Shown here piece by piece: positions 50,203 through 60,472 of a DNA stretch of 60,516 bases. Numbering within the stretch: position 1 is the first letter of the stretch; the number at the start of each line of letters is the position of its first letter. Position numbers and translations under genes: made by a program. Location of the stretch: positions 1-60,516 of the forward strand of contig JAISXP010000058.1 of the NCBI GenBank assembly GCA_031270465.1. Direction: 5' to 3'. The stretch comes from Tannerella sp. Lineage in GTDB: Bacteria; Bacteroidota; Bacteroidia; Bacteroidales; Tannerellaceae. The notes under the pieces were generated by a model that made no database searches, was not told the DNA's origin, and was given only the letters and a program-made list of their open reading frames with translations.

Positions 50203-53200
50203 TTATTTTACAAATGCCTTATACACTGTTTTATTATTCAATTCTACAAGATATAGTCCGGAGGATAAGGCTGCGACCGTCGTCTGCCCTGCTTCTGCAG
50301 AAATCGTTTTCACCCGGTTGCCAGTGACATTATATACGTTGACTTCGGTGGCCTCCGTGACGGAGATATACAGACGGCCTCCGGCGCTCCATACCTTTTC
50401 CGCACCTGCGACCGGCAGATTTGCCGCCGGAATCACGTTGATGTTCACTTCTTCGTATATATCACGAATGACGACGGTATAGGAAATACCGTCACTGTCC
50501 GGCGTCACGGTCACGCCGATGGAATCGGGCATGTGCCGGCGGCCTGTCGTCACTTTGGGGATGCCGACGTGGCTGCCGACGGGTGTGAGGACAAAGGTAA
50601 AGTCGGAGCCGCTCTTCACGTAATATACGTTTGACTCCGGGACGGTAATCATCCCGTCGACAGCGGGCAGCATCACTCTCCGCGAACGGTATTCTTCCGT
50701 AAACGACATGATCCATACGGTCAGTTCCTGTGTCGCGGGAGCAAACATGTTTCCTGCGCTGGCGGCCTTGACCGTGATGATATATTTGCCTTCCGGCCCG
50801 GCGGGCGTGCCGCTGATGACGCCGTTCCTGAACGTCAGTCCGGCAGGCAGCGTGCCTTTTTCCAGCGTCCATACAATATCGGGGCGGTTGAATACGGATA
50901 CTTCCGCATAATAGGGCGTTCCTTCGATACCGTCCGGAACGAACCTCGCAAAGACGGGCGGGACGCTCAGCGGAGACGGCCGTATGATGATGCGTCCCGT
51001 CCGGATTGCGGACGAGCCCCATGCATTCGAGGCTATGAAGCTGACATTATAAACGCCGTCGGCCGTCGGCGTACCGCTGACGATTCCGCTACCGCTCAGC
51101 GACAGTCCCGGAGGTGCACCGGTCCATGACCACGTGGAGGGATTGTTGATTGCCGTGACGGTCGCACCTGTATATGTTTCGCCTGCCGTGCCGTCCGGCA
51201 GCGTGAATGCGTCGATGACCGGCGGTGGCGACGGTGGCTGTACGGTGAGCACAAAAGATTTGCTTGACGACCCTTCCGCATTGCCTGCTTTTATTTTGAA
51301 GGTATATGTCCCCGGATTGGACGGAATGCCGGAAACAGACCCCGGCGACGCGGCGAACGTCATGCCTACCGGCAGCAGGCCGCCTTCCCACTGAAGCGTG
51401 GCAGGCCGGTCGGTCACGAAGTCGATGCGGCTGAACAGTCCCTGTGCGGCAGCGGGCAGCGTCGACGGTGTTATGATGGCCGGCACATCGGCAATCACTA
51501 CGGTAAGCACATACGTGATGCCGACGGAATCGGGACCGGACAGGCTGGCCGGTTTGGTAGCCGGGTTCTTCGCCCACAGATGCAGGTTGTACGTTCCGGC
51601 TGTTCCCTGAACGGGTGTACCGAGAATTTTTCTTGTAGACGGATCGAACGTTATTCCGGTCGGGAAGGTTGACGGGTCATAATGTATATTGATATACTGG
51701 CTGCCCGTGACCTGTATGGTCGTATCGGCAAAGGGTGTGTTTTCCTTCACCTGCGACGACGTGCCGAGATCTTGCGTGACAAAATACGGCAGTGCCGGGT
51801 TTGGCGACGCCGTAAGAATCGATACCGTATACGACTGATAGCCGTACGTTCCTTCCGTCTCGGCGCATATCGTGAAGTTCTGGGTCTCGACGGTGACAGG
51901 CGTGCCGTGCAGCGTACCGTCTTCTTCGAGCGTCAGGCCGGCAGGCAGATTGCCGGATGTCATGTAAAACTTTACCGAAGGCAGACCTGTACCCGGCTGC
52001 AGTTTGAACCGGAAACTGTATGGCATGGCGAGATAGCCCTGCGCCGAGTCGACTGCCGCCAGATCGGCTTGTGTAGTGGCGATAACCGGCGGGACGATGG
52101 CGCTTACCGCGATGCTGAACTGTCGCTCGTCGGAGCCGGCCGGATTTTGCACCCTGACTTTGAAAGTATGATTTCCGGCCGAACCGGCACTCAGCGTACC
52201 GGATATTCTGCCCGTAGAGACATTCAATGCCAGCCCCGGAGGCAGCGAACCGGCGCTCAGGGCAAATTTGGGCGCAGGCGAACCGGCGACGGAAAGTTTC
52301 ACCGTATCGCTGTACGTTCTTCCTTCGAAACCGTTCGAAAGTGTGCCGGCCGCAATCCGGGGTACCTCGAGCGAAACTCCTGAGACGTATACGTCAAACA
52401 GTACGGGCGTGCCGGCATAATCCGGCTTGCCGGTCGTATTGATTATCTCGTTGAACACTTTCAGCGTGTAGGTGCCCGGCGTCACACCCGAAAAGTCGAG
52501 GGTGACCGGCGCCGTCGAACCGGTACAGGTCGCAGCTTTCGTATAATACCTGATGCCGCCGCTGTCTTCAAGCAGACAGGAAATATAGGAATTTGCAGCG
52601 CTCTCGCCGCCACTGCAGGCCAGCGCAAGATTGCCGCTTACCGGGATGTAGCCGTCCACCGGCGATATGGCGGAAGATGCCGAGAAGGGCGAAACGGCAT
52701 CATCGACCAGCGTAAGTTTTAGCGTATTCGAAGGAGAAAAAGTCGTCGCCGTAAATGATGAGCTTGTGCCTCCCGGTTTACTCTGGGATACCATCAGCAC
52801 CCTGTCGCGGCTGAGGTGCAATGCCGGACGCACCGGTTTTTTCGAGGTTGCCGCTTCGGCGTTTTTCGCGCCGGTACCCCGTGTGATTTGCGTTACAAAT
52901 CCGGGGAACGGTGCAGAACTGTGCGTGCGCGTAAGCCAGTCGTCGTCCGCAGGCGCCGATGTCGTGTTTTCGTACGACATCACATAGCGGGTGTTCACGC
53001 TTCTGCGGGTTGCCGCAACAGGATATACTGTCTCCACAACATCTGCTGCGGGCAGGAATATCATGTCCGTCGTGGAAACATTGTCGGGATTGGCGCCAAA
53101 CGTCGGATTCGTCAGCAGAGAATGAACGATGGCATCCTTTTCCGCCTGAGTGAAGAAGTCTGTCCGGGCGGCGGCGCCTGTTGCAGTCCACACGGCAGTG

Positions 53201-53868
53201 GTCGAGCCGGCGGGCGGTGTCATAAGGTCGCTGTGAGGATAGACCGTACCGATCAGGTCGTTGAATTTCCCGACATCCGAGATCGGCGTCGCCGGATAAG
53301 AAGTCAGAGAAGCCTTGTAGACCGACGGAATCGAATCGTGGCTGTGTCCGTTCAGGAAGTGAGACGTGAACCAGTCGCGTATCGAAGCATTCTCCCATCT
53401 CCCGTTCCACGACGGATTGTCAACCTGATCGTTATACGCCTGCACGTCTATGTTGCCATCCGTAAGCAGCAGGAAGCCTTCCGCATCGTCCTTTACGATC
53501 TGCCATTTGAGCGGCTCTGCATGAATGATGGTTGCCTGACCGCGCGGAGACTTGCCAAACGACAGTGCTCCTCCGTTGAACACCTGATTGTCCGATTTGA
53601 CCACAACAAACGGCCCTGCGGGATACAGTGACACGGGCGAATGATCCATGGCCTCGAGCACCGCGTAGAAAAAGGTTTGCGGATAAATACCGAAATACAC
53701 GGTATTGTAGGGTGCGGCAGTTTTAGCCGCCTGACCGATGCTTCCCAAATTCTGCGCAACGGACGTATGTACGGCCGCGGCAAGCATAATGGTCGCCGCA
53801 AGAAGGGAAGAGATGAGCCCGGAATGGACGCTCTTCTTTCCCGATGATGTGAATACTGGTTTATTCAT
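50203..53868 (-). CDS. Large secreted Ig-repeat protein with T9SS sorting domain
   Basis: A 1221-residue exported protein. Signal peptide 1-39 ending HTSVAQ. Residues about 55-345 resemble a DUF6273-like domain (TVYFGIYPQ, LKWQIVKDDAEGFLLLTDG, WENASIRDWF, DAIVHSLL, MIFLPAADVVE). About 500-1055 hold six putative-Ig (He_PIG-type) repeats with the pattern LPxGLxxxxxGxISGTP. At about 1065-1150 is a module shared with the two upstream T9SS proteins (VKSGSDFTFVLTPV, PKVTTGRRHMPD, IRDIYEEVNINV), and the last about 65 residues are a type A sorting domain (VWSAGGRLYISV, GLYLVELNNKTVYKAFVK). Likely on the cell surface as an adhesin or glycan binder. It follows the 1451-residue gene by 39 bases, probably co-transcribed. 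Confidence 0.85.
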   Translation of the reverse strand: MNKPVFTSSGKKSVHSGLISSLLAATIMLAAAVHTSVAQNLGSIGQAAKTAAPYNTVYFGIYPQTFFYAVLEAMDHSPVSLYPAGPFVVVKSDNQVFNGGALSFGKSPRGQATIIHAEPLKWQIVKDDAEGFLLLTDGNIDVQAYNDQVDNPSWNGRWENASIRDWFTSHFLNGHSHDSIPSVYKASLTSYPATPISDVGKFNDLIGTVYPHSDLMTPPAGSTTAVWTATGAAARTDFFTQAEKDAIVHSLLTNPTFGANPDNVSTTDMIFLPAADVVETVYPVAATRRSVNTRYVMSYENTTSAPADDDWLTRTHSSAPFPGFVTQITRGTGAKNAEAATSKKPVRPALHLSRDRVLMVSQSKPGGTSSSFTATTFSPSNTLKLTLVDDAVSPFSASSAISPVDGYIPVSGNLALACSGGESAANSYISCLLEDSGGIRYYTKAATCTGSTAPVTLDFSGVTPGTYTLKVFNEIINTTGKPDYAGTPVLFDVYVSGVSLEVPRIAAGTLSNGFEGRTYSDTVKLSVAGSPAPKFALSAGSLPPGLALNVSTGRISGTLSAGSAGNHTFKVRVQNPAGSDERQFSIAVSAIVPPVIATTQADLAAVDSAQGYLAMPYSFRFKLQPGTGLPSVKFYMTSGNLPAGLTLEEDGTLHGTPVTVETQNFTICAETEGTYGYQSYTVSILTASPNPALPYFVTQDLGTSSQVKENTPFADTTIQVTGSQYINIHYDPSTFPTGITFDPSTRKILGTPVQGTAGTYNLHLWAKNPATKPASLSGPDSVGITYVLTVVIADVPAIITPSTLPAAAQGLFSRIDFVTDRPATLQWEGGLLPVGMTFAASPGSVSGIPSNPGTYTFKIKAGNAEGSSSKSFVLTVQPPSPPPVIDAFTLPDGTAGETYTGATVTAINNPSTWSWTGAPPGLSLSGSGIVSGTPTADGVYNVSFIASNAWGSSAIRTGRIIIRPSPLSVPPVFARFVPDGIEGTPYYAEVSVFNRPDIVWTLEKGTLPAGLTFRNGVISGTPAGPEGKYIITVKAASAGNMFAPATQELTVWIMSFTEEYRSRRVMLPAVDGMITVPESNVYYVKSGSDFTFVLTPVGSHVGIPKVTTGRRHMPDSIGVTVTPDSDGISYTVVIRDIYEEVNINVIPAANLPVAGAEKVWSAGGRLYISVTEATEVNVYNVTGNRVKTISAEAGQTTVAALSSGLYLVELNNKTVYKAFVK

Positions 53869-53907
53869 GTCTGTATGTTTTAATTTTATTACTCTGTTAT
53901 TTAATGT

Positions 53908-56900
53908 TTACTTGACGAACGCCTTGTACGCTGCACCGTGGAACGAGACAATATATATTCCGGCAGGCAAAGGCATGGCCATCGTCTCGCCTTCTTTCAG
54001 CGAAACAACCGCAATCTGCGCCCCCGGAGCATTGTAGACAGTCGCTATTCCCGGCTCGGCGGCGCGGATATGCAACTTGCCCTTTTCTCCCCAGGCTTTT
54101 GCCGCGGCGATTTTTTCGTTTGCGTCCGGCGTCTTTCCGTTGATATATATCGAGATTGATTCCTGTATCCGGCGAACCGTTACGAAATAATATGCACCGT
54201 CATCTCTCGGTTCGACGGTGACGCTTTCCGCATCGGAGCCGATGCGGCGGTTAGTCGTCACTTTCGGCACGAGCAGGCGCGTCTCGTCGGATACCGGGAC
54301 AAGATAGAACGTAAAGTCACGGCCGCTTTCGATGTGATGAATTCCGACCGGCGGATCTGTGACATATCCCTCCGCTTCGGGCATAGTCACTTTGCGTTCA
54401 AGAACTGCGGCCGGCATTCTCTCCGCAATGATTTCGCCCGTATTGAGAGTCACCTCCTGTGCGGGCACGGTATGCAGTTTCAGCGTAAAGACGAAATGAC
54501 CGTTCGAACCCTGCGGCGCACCTCCCGTCCCTTCGATGGCCGAATCGAAGTCGGTAAACGTGATGTCGCCTTCCGAAACCGTCAGGTCGAAGTTGCGAAG
54601 TACTTCGATGGCGTTGAGTTGAGGTACGAGCCACGTCCTCACTGAGGGCAGCGTATTGGCCACCCGCTGCGACACGACGTGATGCGTGTTTTTGACCGTC
54701 TGTATCAAGTCGTCGACGGCAGATTTCACCGTCGTGCTGTCGGCGACGAAGGGCAGTTCCGAACTGTATTCCGGGACGGGTGTCGGCGTACCGTCCACAT
54801 CGTACCACAGTTCGAAGACGTAGACTGCAGGACTGGCCGACAAGTTTTTTTCTGTCGTAAAGGCCTTACCCAGCGGAATCACAACGTCGCCCAGTGTCAT
54901 GGGAGGGACTACGGGGATAACCGCAGACATATACGCGCCGTCTTTTTTCACACGGATAAGCGGATTGTTGCCGAATACGGAATTCAGATGGAAAAGGTTT
55001 TCGCCGACCAGTTTGAGGTCTACCGTTCCGCCTTCGAATGTCTGGGTGTGCGGCCAGGCGTGAAGCCCTTCCCTGTATCCCAGCGCGGTCTGTGTCGTGT
55101 CGATGATAGCTGTTGCGGGACTGACGGTAGCCGTCAGGTCGGGCGTGACATCCGTCAGCGGCAGCCGACCGATCAGCCGTATCGTAAAGTCGTATGCCTG
55201 CGATGAGACAGACATGTTCGGCGGCAGGACGACATCGACGTATGCCGTCGTGTCTGTGAATTGGACAGATGGAACGTATACTTCCTGATCGACAGCGTAG
55301 CCGGGAATGGCGTTGCGGAATACGATGGCTAATCTGCCTTTGGCAGCCGACAGGTGCCTGCCGTAAACCCATATCCGCACGGGGCCGCCGGCAGCGTCCA
55401 GCGTAGAAGGAACGATTGCGCCTCCCAGACCGGCTCCGTCCGGTATATCGGGCGTCCGGACGCTGAAGTGCAGTTTCGTATTCGACAGACTGTTCCCGTC
55501 GTAGTTGTGGATATAGCCGGCAGGTATGTCCAGTTCATAGTCGCCGTTTGGAAATCCGGCGGGTGCAGGAGAACCGATTTTCAGATTGTTTCTGTCCACT
55601 ACTGTGAGTTGATATTGCCCCGGCGTACCGATGTCCAGCGATGTCGAAGGCAGTCGTGTCAGGTGGAAGTTCGTCTGCAGACTGCTCAGCCCGCCCGTTG
55701 CCGTAAACGGCCTTCCGGAAACATATACGCTGTCTTCCTTGCCGGGGATAATACCGTTTCCGTTGATGTATACCAGAACGGTATCGAGCGACGGAAGCGC
55801 CTCACCTTCAGCCACACTGAACACCACGTACGGGCCTCCGGAACTAAAGGTTACGAGTTTTGGATTCGATACCGTGCGGGTATTTGCGCCTCTCGGATCT
55901 TCGGCCGCATCCTGCTTGACAAAAATCGAAATCGATGTCCTGTCGGGCAAGCTGGAAGCAGGTGTGATGTCGATTATCCAGTCGGAGAAATATCCTGCCG
56001 GGCTTTCAGTCGAGGGCACCGGGGTAACGGCCGTGACGACACCGTAGTCGACAAAAATATCGTCTGTCACCAGATCTTTTACGCCATACGGATAAACGCC
56101 TGTCTGGCTTTTGAATTTCGCGCGAATCCTGAAAGGGCCGCTGACGACCGTGTCGGCCGGAGTTTCCATCGTCAGGTCGGGCGGCAGAAGAAACTTGTCG
56201 AGTACATTAATGTTAAACTGTTTGGGCGTAGGGGCATCAGGCAGATTGTCTGCACTGAAGAGTATCCAGCCGTCGTACGATGTGCCCGGATTTTTACCGG
56301 CTTTCAATCGCAGAACAATATCAAAAGTTACGCCAACCGGAATATAAAATTTGCCTGCGTCGGATGCCAGTTTGCCGGCAAGCGCAGTATCGACAGCCGT
56401 CTGCAGCGGTGTACCCGGACTTGAAATCAGTTCGTAGTCGTCGCCGATAATCGTAATTCGGGGATTATAGAGTTTTTGATTGCCCGTATTGCCTATTGTC
56501 AGCGTAATCTTGTTGTTCGAATTCGTTTCGGCATATCCTGCAGTCAACTCCGGAGGCGTATCCGGTACAAGCTGCACGCTGGGGGTATATGTCGGCGCAA
56601 TCATTACGAAACGCGGGACAGGCCGGGAAACGGCGCTGCCGGTAGCATAATGAGAGGCGGCCGGAGAATCGCTATTGTAATAGGTATCAAGAGGCGGATA
56701 ATTGAGGCCGTACGTGGTTATTCCTCCGGTCAGAAAGCATACATATCCTGTTGCGTTGCTCATCGTGGCCACCGGGGCATAGGAGTGGTTTTTCTCCGTC
56801 TTGGCCGAGGTCAGAAATGCGACATTCATGCTTGAAGGAACGAAGCCGCCGTTCAGCAGCAAAACATGTTTGTCCGCTCCCTGTGCGATGACGGGACTTG

Positions 56901-58263
56901 TCGTCGCCGCCCAGTCGGTATAATTGGGTCTATGCTGACCGTAGGCATTGTCGCCGGCCGGCCAGTTGTTTTTTGTCTTGCCCAGAGGCAGGTACGAGGG
57001 ATTCATGCCGCCGCCCAGCCGTTCGATCACGCTTCTTACGGCGGCATTTTTACTCATGTCGAGAAACATGTCGACCTCGCGGTAGTCTTCCGTGTAGAGG
57101 GCAAGTCTCGAATCGTCCGGATTGCCGAAATAAATCACATTTGTCATTTGCCCCAGCATGGGTCTTCCCGGGTCGTAGCTGGCGGAATAAACGTTTGCTA
57201 CAGGCAAAATGACAATGGAGCCGTTGCCGCCGGCACAGCCTCCGCCGATACCGGCGCCATGCTGTCCGCCCCACGATTCCACCGTGCCGCCGTAAATCAG
57301 CACATCGGCACGGTATATGCCTGCCGTACCCCAGGCACCGCCGATGCCGGCTCCATGCGATGCTGCAATGGCAATTACCACAGGATTACCGCGGATTATT
57401 ACATTGCCGCCGCTGCCTCCGACATCCCCGGCGCCGATACCGGCTGCTCCGGATCGTCCGCCATTATTGTAAGACTGTACGGATTCCCGAATGGAAGCGT
57501 CGCCATCCGTATTCCAGTAAGGCGATCCCTGAGGATGGGCATGAGTTGCCAGACGCGGGGAACTGTTTGCATAGTAATTGCGTGTGGTAGACGATTTGGC
57601 CAGCAGAGAACCGTCGCCTTCGATGTATACGGAACTGCCCTTCCATACTTCGAGGCCGGCGCGGTTGCAGGCGACAATATTCCCGCTGTACAGCATGTTT
57701 TTTCCTTCCAGCCTGACCACTACATTGGAACCGTCAGGCTTGTTTTGAAAGTCCGACGTGCCATTATTTGCATCCACCCCGTCGATAATAAAAGCTGCGT
57801 TATTCACACCTTGAGTCAATATACCCACATTTCTTAAGATAACGGTCACGTTTTTCAGTCCGGCGCCTACATAAATACCGTGATTTTCGGTGCCGATAAG
57901 AAGGAGATTGGTCGAGGCCGCATTCGTCCAGGGAGTTTTCCGCTCGGCGCTTTGTGCGACAGTAATTTTTGTTCCGGCATAGCCGGACGGCGAGCCATAA
58001 TCGCCGCAATAGTTTCCCTCAATGGTATAAGTCCCGTTGGCAAGGATTTTCAGAGGGAAAGAGGTCGAACTGCTGATGGAAACAGCAGTTCCTGCCGTCA
58101 GCGTCGTTCCTCCGGCCGGTATTCCGACCTGAACGGCATTCGCCTTTGCGGCAATCAAAAAGGCGGCTGCAAGAATCATCACACAGCGGAACGCCATCCA
58201 GCCGTCTTTTCCGGGGCGTATTCGCATACGCGCCTGTACGAAAAAATTCAATTTGTGTTTCAT
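53908..58263 (-). CDS. Very large secreted beta-helix/beta-sandwich protein with T9SS sorting domain
   Basis: A 1451-residue exported protein with a long signal region; an internal Met at residue 23 could also start it (FRCVMILAAAFLIAAKANA). Residues about 45-370 are Gly/Asn-rich and beta-helix-like (GIYVGAGLKNVTVILRNVG, GAAGIGAGDVGGSGGNVIIRG, SWGGQHGAGIGGGCAGGNGS). The middle (about 550-1200) consists of several Ig/TIG-like beta-sandwich domains. At about 1290-1375 lies the shared pre-sorting module (IESGRDFTFYLVPV, PKVTTNRRIGSD, VRRIQESISIYI), then a T9SS domain ending PAGIYIVSFHGAAYKAFVK. No enzyme motif is seen; surface adhesin or matrix protein is likely. Long leader with an attenuator-like hairpin. 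Confidence 0.82.
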   Translation of the reverse strand: MKHKLNFFVQARMRIRPGKDGWMAFRCVMILAAAFLIAAKANAVQVGIPAGGTTLTAGTAVSISSSTSFPLKILANGTYTIEGNYCGDYGSPSGYAGTKITVAQSAERKTPWTNAASTNLLLIGTENHGIYVGAGLKNVTVILRNVGILTQGVNNAAFIIDGVDANNGTSDFQNKPDGSNVVVRLEGKNMLYSGNIVACNRAGLEVWKGSSVYIEGDGSLLAKSSTTRNYYANSSPRLATHAHPQGSPYWNTDGDASIRESVQSYNNGGRSGAAGIGAGDVGGSGGNVIIRGNPVVIAIAASHGAGIGGAWGTAGIYRADVLIYGGTVESWGGQHGAGIGGGCAGGNGSIVILPVANVYSASYDPGRPMLGQMTNVIYFGNPDDSRLALYTEDYREVDMFLDMSKNAAVRSVIERLGGGMNPSYLPLGKTKNNWPAGDNAYGQHRPNYTDWAATTSPVIAQGADKHVLLLNGGFVPSSMNVAFLTSAKTEKNHSYAPVATMSNATGYVCFLTGGITTYGLNYPPLDTYYNSDSPAASHYATGSAVSRPVPRFVMIAPTYTPSVQLVPDTPPELTAGYAETNSNNKITLTIGNTGNQKLYNPRITIIGDDYELISSPGTPLQTAVDTALAGKLASDAGKFYIPVGVTFDIVLRLKAGKNPGTSYDGWILFSADNLPDAPTPKQFNINVLDKFLLPPDLTMETPADTVVSGPFRIRAKFKSQTGVYPYGVKDLVTDDIFVDYGVVTAVTPVPSTESPAGYFSDWIIDITPASSLPDRTSISIFVKQDAAEDPRGANTRTVSNPKLVTFSSGGPYVVFSVAEGEALPSLDTVLVYINGNGIIPGKEDSVYVSGRPFTATGGLSSLQTNFHLTRLPSTSLDIGTPGQYQLTVVDRNNLKIGSPAPAGFPNGDYELDIPAGYIHNYDGNSLSNTKLHFSVRTPDIPDGAGLGGAIVPSTLDAAGGPVRIWVYGRHLSAAKGRLAIVFRNAIPGYAVDQEVYVPSVQFTDTTAYVDVVLPPNMSVSSQAYDFTIRLIGRLPLTDVTPDLTATVSPATAIIDTTQTALGYREGLHAWPHTQTFEGGTVDLKLVGENLFHLNSVFGNNPLIRVKKDGAYMSAVIPVVPPMTLGDVVIPLGKAFTTEKNLSASPAVYVFELWYDVDGTPTPVPEYSSELPFVADSTTVKSAVDDLIQTVKNTHHVVSQRVANTLPSVRTWLVPQLNAIEVLRNFDLTVSEGDITFTDFDSAIEGTGGAPQGSNGHFVFTLKLHTVPAQEVTLNTGEIIAERMPAAVLERKVTMPEAEGYVTDPPVGIHHIESGRDFTFYLVPVSDETRLLVPKVTTNRRIGSDAESVTVEPRDDGAYYFVTVRRIQESISIYINGKTPDANEKIAAAKAWGEKGKLHIRAAEPGIATVYNAPGAQIAVVSLKEGETMAMPLPAGIYIVSFHGAAYKAFVK

Positions 58264-58360
58264 TTGTCCTCACATTAAAATTATTATCGAATAAACTGTT
58301 ATCTATTCCGTTGGGAAGTAAAAGTGTAGTCGCACACGGGTGTAACAGGGGGCAGTGAAG

Positions 58361-58398
58361 AAAAAAAACTGTCCGGCTCGCCTTTTCAGTCGAGCCGG
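58361..58398 (-). terminator. Terminator-like hairpin in the leader of the 1451-residue gene
   Basis: On the minus strand CCGGCTCG/CGAGCCGG (58373-58380 and 58391-58398) form an 8-bp stem followed closely by eight Ts (58368-58361). It lies between the promoter box (58557-58564) and the ATG (58263), so it could be an attenuator or the end of a short RNA. Confidence 0.55.
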
Positions 58399-58556
58399 CA
58401 GTAGTCAAAATGACATCGCAGACATCAATCACTCTCTCTAATTCACGCACAAATGGAAAAAAAGATATTCCATTTTGAAACATATTATTGTTCATAACAA
58501 TAAAACACGCTTTTGCATACGTCTCTCTAATTACACTCTCTCTCAATTCTCGGAAG

Positions 58557-58564
58557 CAAAGGTA
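58557..58564 (-). promoter_or_regulatory. -7 box for the 1451-residue T9SS gene
   Basis: TACCTTTG on the minus strand, with a weak TTG 23 bases upstream. It lies 293 bases before the ATG, implying a leader of roughly 280 bases, much longer than elsewhere in the window. Confidence 0.4.
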
Positions 58565-58730
58565 AGACAAATATTGTTCGGGTACGGCAAGATTGTGTGC
58601 AAAAAAGCATAAATCAACTCATAAATAATTAAAAAAGAGGATATTTTGAGTTCGGAGACGGTTACGGGGGATGTCTCGACTGCGCTGCGCTGCGCTCGAC
58701 ATGACGGGACGGTACATCTGGGGGGATGAT

Positions 58731-58851
58731 CTGTTTCTACCAACATTGTGTCCCTACGGGACACCGGAGAAACCGTTATGTCCTGTTTATTTCACATCCC
58801 TAAACAGCATGTAACGGTTCGATTCCATGCCCCGTAGAGACACCGGAAAAC
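58731..58851. repeat. Direct repeat unit, copy A
   Basis: About 121 bases beginning CTGTTTCTACCAACATTG; nearly identical to 59000-59121, with a few mismatches and one 1-base indel in the second hairpin. Confidence 0.85.
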
Positions 58852-58870
58852 TGTTATAGTTCGGTTCCCT

Positions 58871-58899
58871 GTCCCGTAGGGACATAATGTTGGTAGAAA
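58871..58899. repeat. Inverted partial copy of the repeat unit
   Basis: The reverse complement matches 58734-58762 at 28 of 29 positions. It includes the GTCCC/GGGAC hairpin and the TTTCTACCAACATT end. Confidence 0.85.
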
Positions 58900-58999
58900 A
58901 TGCATGCTCCACACCCCGCCCCCGTCCCGTCAGGGACGGAATGTGCTGGGAAATCCACATTTCGTCCCATACGGGACGATGCATCGGATGGTGGATTGC

Positions 59000-59121
59000 C
59001 TGTTTCTACCAACATTGTGTCCCTACGGGACACCGGAGAAACCGTTATGTCCTGTTTATTTCACATCCCTAAATAGCATGTAACGGTTCGATTCCATGTC
59101 CCGTTAGGGACACCGGAAAAC
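59000..59121. repeat. Direct repeat unit, copy B
   Basis: Second copy of the unit, 269 bases after copy A. Its last hairpin GTCCC-GTTA-GGGAC is intact, whereas that of copy A is degenerate. Confidence 0.85.
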
Positions 59122-59157
59122 CGCTACATGCTATTTATTTCGATGGCCTTAGATCGA

Positions 59158-59191
59158 AAAATCCCGGACATGCTGTGATGTCCGGGATTTT
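59158..59191 (-). terminator. Terminator after the 416-residue T9SS gene
   Basis: A 14-bp perfect stem (59158-59171 with 59178-59191) around a 6-base loop, with five Ts on the minus side. Its 59175-59191 half is identical over 17 bases to 6692-6708 in another terminator. Confidence 0.8.
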
Positions 59192-59221
59192 ATCATACAG
59201 TTAAACAAAAGGAGGAAAACA

Positions 59222-60472
59222 CTATTTCAAAATCACCTTATATGCCTTACCGTTCAGCGTAACAATATAGAATCCAGCGGGGAGAGACACTGCCGTCGTT
59301 TCACCTGCGCCGAGCGTCAGCTGTTTGACTAAGGTGCCTGTTGCACCGTATATCTGTGCCGTTGCAGCCGTCACGCCGGTCACGTAGAGCTGTCCGCCTG
59401 CACTCCATACGCTGCTGCCATCCACAGCCTCGCTGCCGGCCACGAGGTCGATGCCCAGGTTGATCGGCGAAGTGACGCGCTTTATCGTGATTTTATATAC
59501 GCCGTTGCCCAAATATTCGCTGACCACATCCTGATCTGCCGGAAGATTGCGTCCCGTCGTGACCTTCGGTTCTTTCGTCTGGTCGGCCACCGTGATTGTG
59601 AGGACGAAGTCCTTACCACTCTCTGCGAATACAAGACCCGTGTGAGACAGCGTAGCGCCGCTTACCGGCAGAATCGTAATCGCGCGCGGGATTATCGGAT
59701 ACGGCGGATTCTCAGCCCAGAGTTCATAAGATATATACGTCGGAGTGTTCGGCTCCTTAAAGTAAATAACTCTGGGTATGTTACTGATTTCCGTATCCGA
59801 AAGCTTTATAATTTTACCGTCCTTATCATAAACTTTGAACCACGTAACACCGCCGGTCAGGGAATACTGCAACAATTTGGAACCGCCCACAACCGAAATA
59901 TCAGCCTTGCCGTCATAATTCGGGCTTGGTTCTACATAGCTCACCGTGATTTTGGGGTAGTTGTAAAAGTTAGCATACCAACGATTTAATATGTTAGATG
60001 GCGACAACGAGTACACAGGAGGCTTAGTGGCATTTTTATCTGACCTTAAAGCAACCACATAAACACTATCATATACACCACCATTCGGTACGGGAAGATC
60101 CGATATGGAGAATTTAACGGTAATCGAATCTTTAGCTGGAACTGTAAATTTCTTTCCCCTTACATTTTCACTCAAATAGGCTGTAAGGGAATCAGTTCCA
60201 ATTTTCGTACCATCACGCTTGACTTCTCCATATAGAGCAATATAAAAATATTGATTCTCTAAAGAACTAGTAGATTTGACTTCTACTTCATATTCAGAAT
60301 TGGAGTATATCGGAGAACTTGCCTCCACAAAGTCATTTGGCGAGACACCAGCATTGGAATAAGGGTAAGCCTTATACGCTTTCTCAAATACGGCAGTCTG
60401 CGCCATGGCCGTAAAGGCCGCACCACTCAGCAAAAAGCTGAGGCAAATCAAAGTAAAAATTTTCTTTTTCAT
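59222..60472 (-). CDS. Secreted protein with T9SS sorting domain
   Basis: About 416 residues from ATG 60472, giving signal peptide KKKIFTLICLSFLLSGAAF ending AMAQ; the longer frame starts with TTG. Residues about 25-250 are beta-rich without a recognised domain (FVEASSPIYSNSEYEVEV, KDSITVKFSISDLPVP). At about 262-345 lies the module shared with the next two genes (AESGKDFVLTITVADQTKEPKVTTGR, ITIKRVTSPINLG). The last 65 residues are a type A sorting domain (VWSAGGQLYVTGV, PAGFYIVTLNGKAYKVILK). Exported through the outer membrane by T9SS; role unknown. A terminator follows at once. Confidence 0.85.
   Translation of the reverse strand: MKKKIFTLICLSFLLSGAAFTAMAQTAVFEKAYKAYPYSNAGVSPNDFVEASSPIYSNSEYEVEVKSTSSLENQYFYIALYGEVKRDGTKIGTDSLTAYLSENVRGKKFTVPAKDSITVKFSISDLPVPNGGVYDSVYVVALRSDKNATKPPVYSLSPSNILNRWYANFYNYPKITVSYVEPSPNYDGKADISVVGGSKLLQYSLTGGVTWFKVYDKDGKIIKLSDTEISNIPRVIYFKEPNTPTYISYELWAENPPYPIIPRAITILPVSGATLSHTGLVFAESGKDFVLTITVADQTKEPKVTTGRNLPADQDVVSEYLGNGVYKITIKRVTSPINLGIDLVAGSEAVDGSSVWSAGGQLYVTGVTAATAQIYGATGTLVKQLTLGAGETTAVSLPAGFYIVTLNGKAYKVILK

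Follow-up and report, generated by a model that had tools for sequence, protein, structure and literature searches.

In the gingipain RgpB of Porphyromonas gingivalis, an immunoglobulin (Ig)-like sandwich of about 84 residues is followed by a flexible linker of about ten residues and then by the C-terminal sorting domain (CTD) of the type IX secretion system (T9SS) (PMC4804311; papers are cited here by PMC number, each for a part of its text). Within such partial texts, the T9SS literature centres on the CTD, and an Ig-like domain in front of it is discussed for a few P. gingivalis proteins. For T9SS cargo of Tannerella forsythia, export, cleavage and glycolipid attachment have been published (PMC7468200). 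Here we describe a 60,516-nucleotide stretch of Tannerella sp. DNA (assembly GCA_031270465.1, contig JAISXP010000058.1, positions 1 to 60,516; hereafter the window), in which three proteins, termed A, B and C, end in a common tail made of a small module, a short linker and a type A CTD. The sequence family of the module is new, and no description of its genus-wide shared use was found in print; the module-CTD tail as such is not a new kind of system.

Three proteins share a module and a sorting domain

A preliminary description of this DNA had proposed that three proteins share a module of about 85 residues with recurring motifs, and this observation is confirmed. The modules of proteins A, B and C comprise 84, 86 and 81 residues, and all contain SG(S/R/K)DF, PKVTT(G/N)R and a closing strand. 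Their pairwise identities by BLASTP were 41% (E 1e-20), 35% (7e-9) and 28% (8e-7), and the observed scores were reached in none of 2000 shuffles per pair. As had also been claimed, the N-terminal regions are unrelated, with no significant mutual match (BLASTP, lowest E 0.54). The module was said to stand directly before the sorting domain; the upstream order holds, but linkers of 12, 14 and 11 residues, respectively, lie between the two domains.

All three genes are on the minus strand. Protein A (50203..53868, 1221 aa) starts with an N-terminus judged signal-like by eye and carries DUF6273 and repeated He_PIG Ig domains. Its module (50431..50682, residues 1063-1146), a predicted Ig-like sandwich, is followed by a linker (50395..50430) overlapping a low-confidence zone of the structure model and by the terminal T9SS type A sorting domain (50206..50394). 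Protein B (53908..58263, 1451 aa), whose N-terminal part gave a single weak beta-helix repeat match below the Pfam cut-off, has its module at 54139..54396 (residues 1290-1375; structure predicted for the module alone), its linker at 54097..54138 and its sorting domain at 53911..54096, the last found by a profile of related tails (E 3.8e-21) that includes the protein B tail itself. Protein C (59222..60472, 416 aa) has an N-terminal region without a convincing Pfam family, a module at 59444..59686 (residues 263-343), a linker at 59411..59443 and a sorting domain at 59225..59410 that matched TIGR04183 (E 1.4e-4) and the tail profile. Genes B and A form a recurring pair, seen also elsewhere in the same genome (G000:C89:13300-22500, L149) and, in further genomes of the genus, at G010:C21, G016:C102 and G016:C234, with similar lengths for most copies.

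When tested against TIGR04183 and PF18962, the CTD of protein A scored above the library cut-offs, and that of protein C fell just below for TIGR04183 (21.7 bits, cut-off 23). Protein B as a full protein had no NCBIfam match, its CTD being unrecognised by TIGR04183. As isolated tails, A, B and C included, 47 of 47 matched TIGR04183 at E up to 1. The CTD fold is of the RgpB type, as in T9SS type A cargo proteins. The sortase PorU is encoded in the same genome by a frame of 1141 aa (G000:C140; NF033707 over cut-off).

Pairing of the module with the sorting domain

Module loci were collected at 20 bits or more and are mostly best search matches, not an even sample. Among 75 unique hits in the genus, two (L123 and L074) were set aside because their frames run off the fetched stretch. 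The order of module, CTD and stop was found in all 73 remaining complete frames, none of which had a module without a CTD. Outside the genus, a CTD followed the module in 35 of 48 hits, one of the 48 coming from another family (L129). The proposal that module and sorting domain travel together as a two-domain tail thus stands for the genus and only in part beyond it.

The module is carried by some tails of a cell and not found on others. With the profile of the three modules (3-row profile), it was detected on 19 of the 33 CTD-like tails of the genome that the window comes from, on 8 of 18 in G050 and on 4 of 29 in G061; the CTD profile used for these counts was built from module-bearing tails. 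A 47-row module profile added two further places in the own genome, at positions not among the matches listed.

The cargo parts upstream are diverse. Sixteen own-genome frames outside the window, seven of them cut at a contig end, fell into seven N-terminal groups with no match detected between groups. The domains in these frames include LRR, DUF6273 with He_PIG, beta-helix, IgGFc_binding, YDG and MBG. In L156 (G000:C131, cut at the contig end), IgGFc_binding (E 1.3e-27) and a beta-helix are joined to module and CTD.

Some tails are nearly identical within one genome, at 94-97% over 695-782 bases in G004 (L040, L121, L122) and 98.4% over 182 bases in G061 (L126, L127). Contigs end in or near these tails, and in G061 the identity ends at the stop codon. 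Such near-identical tails may explain cargo genes without ends in draft genomes.

Predicted fold and relation to known families

Structure models predict an Ig-like fold for the module. An Ig-like domain upstream of the CTD, separated from it by a flexible linker, is the gingipain-type arrangement, and the predicted tail agrees with it at the level of common arrangement. By this predicted fold, the module forms a new sequence family among the Ig-like domains already known to precede a T9SS signal.

No Pfam family exceeded its cut-off on 47 modules, which gave scattered matches of 1-3 members each (best E 0.0011); 19 out-of-genus modules behaved likewise (best E 0.0027). The recurring NCBIfam matches in the scan of module tails were T9SS tail models. 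The module had been called undescribed-looking, and this agrees with the libraries searched, Pfam and NCBIfam, in which nothing matched it over cut-off. No published description of the domain was found in the T9SS literature either, largely without subscription journals. A profile falling inside a known Ig-like family, or hits as frequent without a sorting domain as with one, had been named as findings that would speak against the proposal; within the genus no known Ig-like profile covers the module and every complete frame with it also had a CTD, while an Ig-like fold is nonetheless predicted and exceptions exist outside the genus. The in-genus and out-of-genus modules are clearly homologous (hhalign 99.7%, E 7.5e-26), and neither profile found a solved relative by sequence.

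Several candidate relations were set aside. TcfC, an E-set family, gave matches to 9 of the 47 sequences when the tail was included (best 5.5e-4) and to none in the module-only scan. A coat protein match (1.6e-4) lies in the tail, on two stretches that fail alone, and was judged fortuitous; Endonuclease I matched weakly (0.0049), in the CTD and not in the module. A phage or viral origin was rejected, since the protein A tail query, which reaches close relatives only, found none in viral contigs, and PHROGs matches were single and weak. Foldseek listed Ig domains for the module, none at E 0.001 or better; a family missing from that list may still be related.

The linker as the probable cleavage site

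Linker, conservation and position counts were made on 68 distinct copies out of 73 rows, at 30 bits or more and with near-whole model coverage. The distance to the first Trp of the CTD was 13-21 residues in 63 of these 68, and an A/S-N pair occurred in the linker of 35, compared with 14.9 (standard deviation (sd) 3.1) in shuffled linkers.

Veith et al. 2020 reported mature T. forsythia C-termini bearing a glycolipid remnant, namely FGPDHV for Tanf_02425, TKEDPV for TfsB and KSPL for TfsA (PMC7468200), and these published cleavage sites correspond in position to the module-CTD linker. In L069, from another genome of the genus, FGPDHV stands right after the last module strand and before SNEL and the CTD; variants of it occur in L059, L066 and L073. 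G061 did not yield FGPDHV in this exact form; at least two of its contigs start within CTD copies that are nearly identical to each other. Given the position of FGPDHV in L069 and the excess of A/S-N pairs in the 68 linkers, the cut likely falls in the linker, and the mature protein would then have the module as its final domain. Following the A/S-N pattern, with the site deduced from PMC7468200, the sortase would likely cut protein A before Ala1149-Asn1150 and protein B before Ala1381-Asn1382. The linker of protein C holds no A/S-N pair, and no cleavage point is predicted for it. For Prevotella intermedia, cuts in the flexible linker between folded domains have been reported as well (PMC11969387).

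G061 contains two neighbouring frames, 1369 and 1178 residues long, that carry the TfsB and TfsA peptides near the C-terminus, followed by ANE and ANA. From these peptides we take the frames to be TfsB and TfsA, and G061 to be T. forsythia or very near it. The tail profile barely sees these S-layer CTDs in L078 (E 0.0014 for TfsA, no entry up to 0.01 for TfsB), so that the TfsA and TfsB CTDs appear far from those of module-bearing cargo.

Distribution across genomes

The own genome holds 19 module places by the 3-row profile and 21 by the 47-row profile. In the family sample, the 47-row profile matched 57 of 98 genomes, namely all 29 sampled from the own genus and 28 of the 69 from other genera. 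Of 18 other genomes in the genus, the 3-row profile matched 16, all but G002 and G013, and it matched none of 12 from other families. G013 was matched with the 47-row profile, and for G002, outside the 98-genome sample, the 3-row result is the only one. At the level of the order (E 1e-4), 4 of 295 genomes matched, three in the family and G381 marginally at 7.3e-5; at the level of the phylum (E 1e-3), 2 of 395 did, both within the family. These two scans scored part of the candidates per genome and may miss weak copies. As far as the profiles reach, the module thus appears to be a domain of one family, Tannerellaceae, densest in Tannerella.

Possible role of the module

We consider it probable, at roughly 60%, that the module is an Ig-like insulating and stabilising stalk with which the folded part of the cargo ends once PorU has cut off the CTD. 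In the periplasm the cargo would end in two independent sandwiches, the module and the CTD, with a flexible linker between them. The CTD would take the cargo through the T9SS, PorU would cut in the linker and join the new C-terminus to glycolipid, and the module would remain as the domain nearest the membrane. It would insulate the differing N-terminal parts from the CTD, keep the linker exposed and stable, and serve as a short stalk. The proposal builds on the sequence family, its pairing in the genus, the predicted fold, the PorU gene and a published mature C-terminus that matches a congener's linker; from these we infer the insulating and stabilising role and the cleavage in proteins A, B and C. 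Spacer, docking site and glycan anchoring had all been suggested before, and of these a spacer or insulator fits best. Glycan anchoring survives in so far as published cleavage and anchoring occur just after the matching position; the motifs for O-glycosylation are fewer than in shuffles.

Several observations weigh against the stalk. Its role is deduced from position and fold alone, and the structural matches of the module are generic. Arg1 (84%), Thr46 (93%) and Arg48 (69%) are constant polar positions over the 68 copies; a passive spacer would not need such constancy, so that the module may also bind something. The pairing is weaker beyond the genus, 13 of 48 hits having no following CTD; seven of these stand ahead of later copies in tandem arrays, four in L104 and three in L145, and the other six are partial, internal or without a recognisable CTD. 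In the own genome, 14 of 33 CTD-like tails lack a match to the 3-row profile, and the module is absent from TfsA and TfsB of G061, so it is not needed for the route. The mass-spectrometric evidence reaches the module through one hexapeptide of Tanf_02425 that recurs in a congener protein. The D(S/T)X O-glycosylation motifs are depleted in the modules (19 against a shuffled mean of 33.7, sd 5.2): at least the observed number was reached in 999 of 1000 shuffles, 17 of 68 copies carry this broad motif, and a narrow motif occurred 14 times against 24.1 in shuffles. A platform for such O-glycans, to which a PDS(I/V/T)GV loop recurring in several copies, including protein A, might point, is therefore rejected as highly improbable.

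The constant polar positions would suit a module acting as the second half of a bipartite export or attachment signal, which contacts the CTD or PorV/PorU/PorZ and is needed for the recognition or cutting of a cargo subset. Over the 68 copies the module is conserved like the CTD (mean pairwise identity 31% for each, compared with 18% over the preceding stretch of at most 100 residues), its distances track those of the CTD (correlation 0.30) more than those of the upstream part (0.17), and RgpB stayed periplasmic after an exchange at a CTD residue that touches the domain before it (PMC11285876). However, all three distance correlations, the upstream one included, were higher than in any of 999 permutations, a pattern for which the shared ancestry of paralogues may account; moreover, the alignment upstream is of poor quality, with a placeholder (L052) as one of its 68 rows. 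Most tails in the G050 and G061 genomes also lack a module match, and TfsA and TfsB reach the surface via the T9SS (PMC4175972) without a module. We thus regard such a signal as rather unlikely. We likewise find it unlikely that Tannerella has a bipartite T9SS tail in which a genus-wide Ig-like docking domain, conserved as strictly as the sorting signal, presents the CTD to the attachment complex and then becomes the foot at the glycolipid that a whole class of surface proteins would have in common; if this were true, the module sequence would decide which cargos are anchored together.

The pairing could instead be historical: the final copy from a lineage of Ig-like repeats would have been duplicated as one unit with the CTD, and the module would be at most a generic stalk. 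The out-of-genus copies, homologous to those of the genus, stand in tandem in one frame (L104, L145) or away from the protein end (L107, L112), and the near-identical tails of G004 and G061 indicate recent copying. Repeats beside the module in L107 and L112 look by eye like what we take to be InlB-type repeats. Yet all 73 genus frames are paired despite a mean identity of 31% among the 68 distinct copies, which means that the pairing was kept over long divergence and makes a purely historical origin quite unlikely. The insulating stalk remains our preferred reading. Since the module is present on some cargos and not found on others of the same cell, and since a published cleavage point matches the position just behind a close counterpart of it, the choice between spacer and docking is directly testable. 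The genus-wide module-CTD tail should interest T9SS specialists, and a module profile would help to recognise Tannerellaceae surface proteins whose CTD is too divergent for existing models, such as protein B.

Comparison with known systems

TIGR04183 and PF18962 cover the domain after the module, which is the extreme C-terminal one, has the RgpB-CTD fold and matches TIGR04183. The module is a separate domain upstream, and its profile comparison with the CTD (26.5% probability over 26 columns; E 0.0007, valid for a single pair only) was taken as no relation, so the module was rejected as a duplicated CTD. DUF6383 (PF19910) gave weak matches to 27 of the 47 sequences of module plus tail. Its weak matches in B and C (below cut-off in B) fall in the CTD region, beginning after the module and covering none of it; the module-only scan did not list it. 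With filamin-type and other Ig domains the module shares a fold likeness only, at 7-10% identity in the two best matches. The KLIKK proteases of T. forsythia also bear a common C-terminal extension on different cargos; in them only the last 86 residues, the CTD, and a 30-residue motif are common, with a variable region between (PMC4404884).

The closest likeness is to the Ig superfamily (IgSF) domain before the CTD of the P. gingivalis gingipains and PPAD, where sandwich, linker and CTD follow in the same order (PMC4804311). When the 47-row profile was run against PDB sequences, RgpB, Kgp and PPAD were absent from the 21 entries listed up to E 10, and the RgpB IgSF domain was not among the 50 best structural matches listed for the module alone in either search. 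We take the module as a presumable counterpart of the RgpB IgSF domain, by analogy of arrangement and without a detectable sequence relation. The gingipain-type IgSF domain has reportedly been tied, in a 2018 title by Sato, to cargo stability during secretion. Compared with the IgSF domains of Kgp, RgpB and PPAD, as far as the partial accounts of these go, the Tannerella tail differs in that one sequence family recurs across a genus on numerous unrelated cargos, and other cargos of the same cell gave no module match.
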